Assembly (NCBI GenBank): GCA_015693905.1
Contig: CP065161.1
Span: 2,153,001-2,217,000 of the forward strand
DNA: 64,000 nt
From: Rhodobacterales bacterium HKCCA1288
GTDB taxonomy: Bacteria; Pseudomonadota; Alphaproteobacteria; Rhodobacterales; Rhodobacteraceae
Direction of reading: 5' to 3'
The translations under genes and the position numbers were made by a program. This document shows, piece after piece, positions 62,881-64,000 of the stretch (its first letter is position 1; each line of letters begins with the position of its first letter). The notes beneath the pieces are model-generated. The model saw only the letters and a program-made list of their open reading frames with translations. It ran no database searches and had not been told where the DNA came from.

Positions 62881-64000
62881 TTAGTTCAAATGGCGCAAGA
62901 GCCGCGCATGACGATCAAAGGCCGTGATCAACTGTCCCAAATTTTGGATATCTGTCGCCTCAAGCATGGGCAACATCTTCACAAAGGCCCGCGCCGTTCC
63001 CAATGTGTCGCCAAGTGCGGTATGACGGGCATTGTCGGGTATGCGGATGCTGAGGCGGTCACAGAGCGCGTCCAATGTGTGTTCCGCAGACTGACCAAAA
63101 AGGATGGCCGAACACAGAACAGTGTCCAAGATCGGCTGATCAAAACGCGCACCAATGGCCCCTTCGCGCCGCTGTAGAAAAGCCATGTCAAAGGGGGCGT
63201 TATGGGCCACCAGAACCGCGCCATCGGCAAAGCGATGAAACCGCGATAAGGAATCAACGACCGATGGAGCGTCTGCCACCATCTCATTGGTGATGTGATG
63301 CACCGCTGTTGAGGCCGCAGGGATTTTGCGCGCAGGGTTGACCAATGTGTCAAAGCGTTCGCTCTCGACCAATTTGCCGTTTACAATTCGCATCGCGGCG
63401 ATCTGACAGATTTCATCGACTTGCGGGTTCAGCCCGGTGGTTTCTGTATCGAACACCACGAAAGACAAGTTCTTCAGCGGGGCCTGTGACAGCTCAGCAG
63501 GCAGTGCGGTTTGCAACAGGTCAAAATCATATTGGATCACGCGCGGCGTTTGCAGCGTTTCGGGGGCGGCGGCTAGTGACAGGCTGATCCGTTGATCTGT
63601 GGCTTCGATCTTGGCGCCGTGGCTGCGCAAAACATCTGCCCCTGCAAAGCGTGAATGGCCCGTGATCAGGGGGCTGTCTAACCAATCATTGAGTCGTGCC
63701 GCGTCAGGGGCCTTTGCATCTCCCTGCAGGTCAAGAATGGCCTCTCCCTCTGACAGTCGGGCCGAAAGTCGAATGTCAGACGCCCCCGCGCCAATCCACG
63801 ACAGCGTCAGGCGCTCTAACAAGCGGCTGATGGCAAAGCCATCGGCGCGCAGTCGCAGGTCAGGCAGCGCGTCATACTGCAGTTGGATATCCTTTTGCGC
63901 CAAGCGCGTGGCAAGCGCGATTCCAATATCGGATAGGTCAAGCTGCTCAAGGGGCCACCATGCTGTATCGGTTTTGGCTTTTTCTTTTTGCACATCGTGC
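62881..64000 (-). CDS. Kinase-like/DnaQ-type 3'-5' exonuclease fusion, 3' part
   Basis: The gene runs off the right edge, so its start is not seen; the visible part is about 372 residues. The first 145 resemble a degraded histidine-kinase ATPase domain: a helix-rich entry, LERLTLSWIGAGASDIRLSARL, then no clear N-box asparagine or G2 glycines. The C-terminal 200 are a DnaQ/DEDDh exonuclease with FDTETTGL, VAHNAPFDMAFL and HTALGDTLGTA, all metal residues present. Exonuclease activity is likely; the role of the N-terminus is unknown. Confidence 0.85.
   Translation of the reverse strand, partial: HDVQKEKAKTDTAWWPLEQLDLSDIGIALATRLAQKDIQLQYDALPDLRLRADGFAISRLLERLTLSWIGAGASDIRLSARLSEGEAILDLQGDAKAPDAARLNDWLDSPLITGHSRFAGADVLRSHGAKIEATDQRISLSLAAAPETLQTPRVIQYDFDLLQTALPAELSQAPLKNLSFVVFDTETTGLNPQVDEICQIAAMRIVNGKLVESERFDTLVNPARKIPAASTAVHHITNEMVADAPSVVDSLSRFHRFADGAVLVAHNAPFDMAFLQRREGAIGARFDQPILDTVLCSAILFGQSAEHTLDALCDRLSIRIPDNARHTALGDTLGTARAFVKMLPMLEATDIQNLGQLITAFDRHARLLRHLN

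Follow-up and report, generated by a model that had tools for sequence, protein, structure and literature searches.

At the right edge of the window (the whole 64,000-nucleotide stretch of Rhodobacterales bacterium HKCCA1288 DNA analyzed here), a minus-strand open frame running from position 62881 to the window edge joins a part shaped like the ATPase of a histidine kinase to a DEDDh exonuclease, and the question it raises is what a kinase-like module devoid of catalytic motifs does in front of an intact nuclease. The window holds the 372 C-terminal residues only. Mapping of the frame on the host genome (one contig, 2,663,031 bases) extended the gene past the edge to 662 codons (G000:C1:2215881-2217869, minus strand), and its product, P0001, comprises, in order, two transmembrane (TM) helices (by hydropathy, around residues 5-35 and 42-64), HAMP-like helices, a PAS domain (a weak Pfam match), a DHp/CA kinase-like part, and the DEDDh exonuclease (Table 1). 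The original prediction, made from the window alone, had placed the start outside it and allowed for membrane or sensor parts there, and both the TM helices and the PAS domain indeed lie beyond the edge.

Table 1. Features of the fused gene within the window
Feature	Position	Strand	Basis or remark
Last 372 codons, with the stop, of the 662-codon gene (P0001)	62881..64000	-	start beyond window: G000:C1:2217869 (L003:10869)
CA-like (kinase ATPase-shaped) part, residues ~300-435	63565..63972	-	profile, structure model, motif alignment
YDFDL linker motif, conserved, residues 447-451, between CA-like part and exonuclease	63517..63531	-	alignment
DEDDh 3'-5' exonuclease domain, residues 467-632	62974..63471	-	Pfam, structure model
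Exo I motif D474-T-E476	63442..63450	-	residue alignment
Exo II Asp D561	63187..63189	-	residue alignment
Exo III motif H616 to D621	63007..63024	-	residue alignment

State of the kinase-like part and of the exonuclease

Pfam gave no HisKA or HATPase_c match in P0001 itself, so the kinase resemblance is hidden from single-sequence searches. Relatives were drawn from named genomes (80 in all), and a profile of the part preceding the exonuclease (48 rows) matched VicK (PDB 4i5s) across HAMP-PAS-DHp-CA at an E value of 1.6e-23, with further matches to a ThkA-type sensor, the WalK PAS, and DivL. Of 49 members compared with Pfam, 7 reached HisKA at an E value of 0.1, and the 25 families listed did not include HATPase_c. 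The full-length AlphaFold model of a 701-residue Rhodobacter capsulatus relative (pLDDT, 88.5) contains the TM helices and a long coil, then PAS, a pair of DHp helices, an alpha/beta part resembling CA, and the exonuclease; its best Foldseek match was WalK (E value, 1.1e-16), with VicK at rank 4 (8e-13). The window part modeled alone reached a pLDDT of 91.6. With VIA-align, the best 50 matches of both models were all exonucleases, that domain filling the list, so the kinase-like fold rests on the VicK profile match and Foldseek, which both bear out the kinase-ATPase shape originally read from the letters of the N-terminal part.

In the profile-VicK alignment, the phospho-acceptor site is not His, the N-box is not Asn, the G1 Asp is replaced by Trp, and the G2 glycines and ATP lid are largely absent. 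Among the 85 long members of the family, the phospho-acceptor His was kept in none (Glu in 47 and Asp in 26, 73 together), the G1 Asp likewise in none (Trp in 79), and the N-box Asn in 2 and 0 at the two sites considered. The CA-like part of P0001 lacks the N-box, the G1 Asp, and the G2 glycines, its erosion going beyond that of the relatives; the stretches shown for P0001 in the motif alignment agree with those of L005, 97% identical. Since the catalytic residues are gone from all 85 long members and other positions stay conserved (Trp in 79 of 85), the kinase-like part is an old, established pseudokinase and not a product of gene-specific decay. The predicted losses of the N-box and glycine motifs are thus real and family-wide, and the word "degraded" used for the domain holds for its catalytic motifs, not for the decay of one gene. 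As a general explanation, a recent pseudogene or degraded gene is ruled out by the same family-wide dead motifs. The fused family shares with VicK and WalK the TM-HAMP-PAS-DHp-CA order and fold and differs from them in lacking the phospho-acceptor His, the ATP-binding motifs, and the ATP lid and in carrying an exonuclease.

The exonuclease is intact, as foreseen. Its RNase_T/DEDDh match has an E value of 1.5e-35 (Pfam), the metal residues D474, E476, D561, H616, and D621 are all present, and the corresponding positions (Exo I DxE, Exo II D, Exo III Hx4D) are kept in 84 to 85 of the 85 long members. The model has an RNase-H-like fold and superimposes on the PolC exonuclease domain (VIA Z, 25.0; rmsd, 2.0; 196 aligned). 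P0001 exceeds the cut-off of the broad TIGR00573 domain (102.8 versus 71.5) and falls below those of the NCBIfam epsilon equivalogs (96.9 and 95.8 bits versus 196 and 222.7). A separate dnaQ-like gene is found in the host genome at G000:C1:1904381, and together with the sub-cut-off scores it rules out the replicative epsilon subunit (DnaQ); the fused form shares with PolC, DnaQ, DinG, and ExoX the DEDDh fold and metal residues and differs in not being a replicative epsilon. An anti-phage system was rejected as well, the PADLOC matches being only to generic DEDDh and cyclic-nucleotide-binding entries.

The observation of the original prediction, a signaling-derived module joined to a DEDDh exonuclease with all metal residues, is confirmed, and its interpretation, control by a ligand or the membrane, is partly supported. 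The TM hairpin has hardly any periplasmic loop, which makes an extracellular ligand unlikely; likelier inputs are the PAS domain, a response regulator, or membrane partners. Searches of the open-licence literature returned no paper on a pseudokinase-exonuclease fusion, and the layout hints at an undescribed bacterial way of switching a nuclease on or off.

A stand-alone response regulator beside the pseudokinase

In three loci from which the usual neighbors are missing (L056, L081, and L097), a gene for a stand-alone response regulator (REC) lies directly upstream, accompanied by a sensor kinase whose HisKA and HATPase_c domains are intact. Pfam gave no SSS match in that kinase; its N-terminal half is presumably an SSS-type transporter, by likeness to CbrA and CrbS. 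We then counted REC-only genes directly upstream of the exonuclease in 137 loci, left from 147 unique ones (counting identical exonucleases once and dropping loci in which no exonuclease matched at 1e-20) after requiring 450 bp upstream and closed ends. Of the 84 pseudokinase-bearing loci, 63 had such a gene, and of the 53 lacking the pseudokinase, none had; the contrast persisted with one locus per 85% cluster (52/71 versus 0/51) or per 60% identity cluster (14/18 versus 0/32), the Fisher values for these and the other associations being computed without phylogeny correction.

In most cases the REC gene abuts or overlaps the start of the exonuclease gene, and in R. capsulatus (L036) the genes for the symporter, the nucleotidyltransferase, a P0004-like protein, REC, and the exonuclease follow one another closely, abutting or sharing a few bases in an operon-like manner. 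The phospho-Asp, Thr/Ser, and Lys were retained in all 63 adjacent REC proteins, which by these intact residues are predicted to be phosphorylatable. On the side of the pseudokinase, the H-box Arg was retained in 63/63 REC-positive and in 10/20 REC-negative members, one of the 21 latter being absent from the alignment. An SSS-type kinase was found within 24 of the 80 loci of relatives, 23 of which were also REC-positive. In the SLC5/STAC sensor kinases (CrbS and CbrA) the symporter domain is in the kinase's own chain; the fused form has such a kinase only as a neighbor in those 24 loci, and no symporter domain shares a chain with the fused exonuclease (Pfam and AlphaFold model).

From these data we propose, with about as much belief as doubt, a membrane-anchored, signal-controlled DEDDh exonuclease in which a pseudokinase input is read by REC and the exonuclease is the output, serving carboxylate uptake. 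The SSS-type sensor kinase, near REC in many beta- and gammaproteobacterial loci, the betaproteobacterial L102 among them, would phosphorylate REC, which would then dock on the dead DHp and change the conformation of the dimer. This change would be passed to the exonuclease, with the pseudokinase receiving information from the response regulator much as DivL does from DivK, and the output would tune the uptake or use of short carboxylates of the acetate/pyruvate type, perhaps via trimming of specific RNAs. Of these steps, we infer the docking of REC on the pseudokinase and the nature of the nuclease substrate. Were the model true, a phosphorylated response regulator would act on a nuclease directly, with no transcription involved, through a kinase turned receiver; the co-loss of REC and the pseudokinase makes it directly testable in R. 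capsulatus, a nonpathogen.

The same loci allow a simpler reading, which we regard as possible but somewhat unlikely, namely that DHp-CA is a mere dimerizing spacer, TM/HAMP/PAS act straight on the exonuclease, and REC is just a co-member of the operon. Many members drop DHp-CA and keep a TM-PAS-exonuclease of about 470 residues in the same operon, also with no REC, and the adjacent REC is missing from 21 of the 84 pseudokinase loci, among them ones with an intact-looking DHp (L062, L043, L098, and L112), so the link between REC and the pseudokinase is not absolute; these loci may do without REC or have its gene at another site. Against the spacer stand the absence of REC next to all 53 pseudokinase-less forms and the REC gene's abutting or overlapping the exonuclease start in most cases, which connect REC with the pseudokinase rather than with the operon in general.

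For REC reading a pseudokinase there is a precedent in DivL, whose kinase core, according to PMC4211667, senses DivK~P and whose DHp-CA is often missing from alphaproteobacteria without DivK. Both DivL and the fused family have a DHp-CA without the phospho-acceptor His, PAS and TM segments upstream, and a single-domain response regulator as a partner, and in both regulator and DHp-CA are lost together, although the window protein itself has no REC. DivL belongs to the CckA pathway, has Tyr at the His site, and, in the same paper, retains the N, G1, F, and G2 boxes; the fused family has mostly Glu or Asp at that site, has lost the boxes, and has gained an exonuclease. The DivK/DivL analogy is therefore partial, and the family was only likened to DivL in its working, not filed as a member. 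Regulator-read pseudokinases are thus already known, whereas an exonuclease output was described in no paper found in the open-licence literature.

Gene neighborhood and the link to DUF294

Upstream of the fused gene and in the same direction lie, in order, acs, adk, and genes for a DUF4212 protein (TIGR03647), a VC_2705-family symporter (TIGR03648, 805 bits), a nucleotidyltransferase with the domains cNMP-CBS-CBS-DUF294-DUF294_C, and P0004, the last separated from the exonuclease gene by 39 bp. The downstream neighbor is, as we take it from its sequence, ffh. A DUF294 protein and a symporter were found within 20 kb around the fused gene in 20/20 genomes and around dnaQ of the same genomes in 0/20; these genomes were chosen for holding the fused gene (one of the loci, L218, being shorter than the others), and the contrast is thus one between genes of the same genome, not between genomes. 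At least one of DUF294, symporter, and DUF4212 was present in 67 of the 80 named loci, and acs also often accompanies the fused gene together with DUF294 and the DUF4212/VC_2705-type symporter. Among 61 relatives, the exonuclease family (>80 bits) was found in 26 of 28 DUF294-bearing genomes and in 0 of 33 without DUF294; of the two exceptions, one genome (G001) is 69% complete, and in the other (G038) an exonuclease with a weaker match immediately adjoins the DUF294 gene.

A scan of the locus for promoters and terminators gave candidates in numbers at chance level. A strong terminator-like hairpin (L003:13358-13387; 13 pairs and a T tail) lies between the symporter and nucleotidyltransferase genes and may give the symporter an expression differing from that of the nucleotidyltransferase-exonuclease genes. 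P0004 (L003:10909-11442; 177 residues) has no Pfam or NCBIfam match and occurs near the exonuclease in 19/20 family loci and 33/80 named loci.

The near-perfect co-occurrence with DUF294 brings up a bold alternative to the favored role of a signal-gated exonuclease serving carboxylate uptake: the exonuclease could be an eraser of nucleotidyl marks written by the DUF294 enzyme on the symporter, the DUF4212 subunit, or another partner, by likeness to a GlnD-like writer paired with a DEDDh eraser. It agrees with the exonuclease, CBS, and DUF294 being joined in one chain of about 700 to 750 residues in alphaproteobacterial loci (L029, L135, L136, and L163-L170), with a catalytic motif of the GSxGRxE...DxD type kept in 78/84 neighboring nucleotidyltransferases, and with an exonuclease adjoining the DUF294 gene in 14/14 sampled Pseudomonas loci (L149-L162). 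To our knowledge, however, no DEDDh enzyme removes protein-nucleotide marks, and we consider the eraser improbable. A further argument against it comes from Pseudomonas putida, in which, according to PMC9927547, deletion of either pp_0353 (the exonuclease) or actP-I makes growth on pyruvate slower, but deletion of pp_0354 (the CBS-domain gene) causes no growth defect on pyruvate, a misfit for a simple writer/eraser pair. DUF294_C is classed with the GlnD-type C-terminal domains in PMC3710099. The natural fusions of both enzymes often adjoin DUF4212 and symporter genes.

In PMC9927547, PP_0353 and PP_0354 are MxtR/ErdR (CrbS/R) targets, and the authors' guess for the effect of pp_0353 is mRNA decay. 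These loci resemble ours in having an exonuclease beside a CBS/DUF294-type gene and a link to an acetate/pyruvate symporter; they differ in that their exonucleases are short (235 to 240 residues in 13 of the 14 sampled, one frame having 464), gave no match to the N-terminal profile in any of the 14, and form in the tree a soluble clade separate from the fused form, a placement that is weak with four DnaQ sequences as the only outgroup. The sampled loci are PP_0353 equivalents by their neighbors, not by the PP_0353 sequence. Since they form a separate clade and have no sensor part, the pp_0353 phenotype transfers by association only. If the proposed model is true, it would assign a function to the DUF294/DUF4212/VC_2705-type module, for which a tie to acetate and pyruvate use is known from Pseudomonas but lacks an explanation.

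Both ideas can be combined into a two-component pathway run backwards, in which an SSS-type nutrient kinase would signal through REC and the pseudokinase to the exonuclease, which would trim DUF294-written oligonucleotidyl tags on the carboxylate symporter complex. We give this little chance; if it were true, the writing and trimming of tags would be an as yet undescribed kind of reversible protein modification.

The window lineage

The window clade (G000, G002, G003, and G014; tree support, 0.999) departs from the rest of the family. The adjacent REC is absent from all four genomes, and an ortholog (66 to 85% identity in G010 and G027) was absent genome-wide, other REC domains reaching at most 45%. 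The DHp aligns over about 50 residues, versus 70 to 76 in the others, and the G1-site Trp and H-box Arg are both lost. These losses would suit a recent decay in which the whole N-terminal part is a nonfunctional remnant in the window species and the exonuclease is a plain membrane-tethered housekeeping nuclease. The operon, however, is intact, and between G000 and G003 the TM/HAMP and PAS parts stay conserved (amino acid identity, 0.95 and 0.81), the values for DHp and CA being 0.57 and 0.59, and we hold such wholesale decay to be quite improbable. The dN/dS values per domain, with dS near saturation, did not point clearly to relaxed selection in the window DHp/CA.

The best reading for the window species is that the pseudokinase arm is decaying and control is left to TM/HAMP/PAS. 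Under the proposed model, with the regulator gene gone and the DHp shortened, control in this lineage would rest on these parts and on the neighboring membrane proteins. Elsewhere in G000 (L225, G000:C1:948000-962000), genes for an SSS-type kinase (895 residues), a REC-only protein, and ScfRs, a short-chain-acyl-CoA regulator, lie close together.
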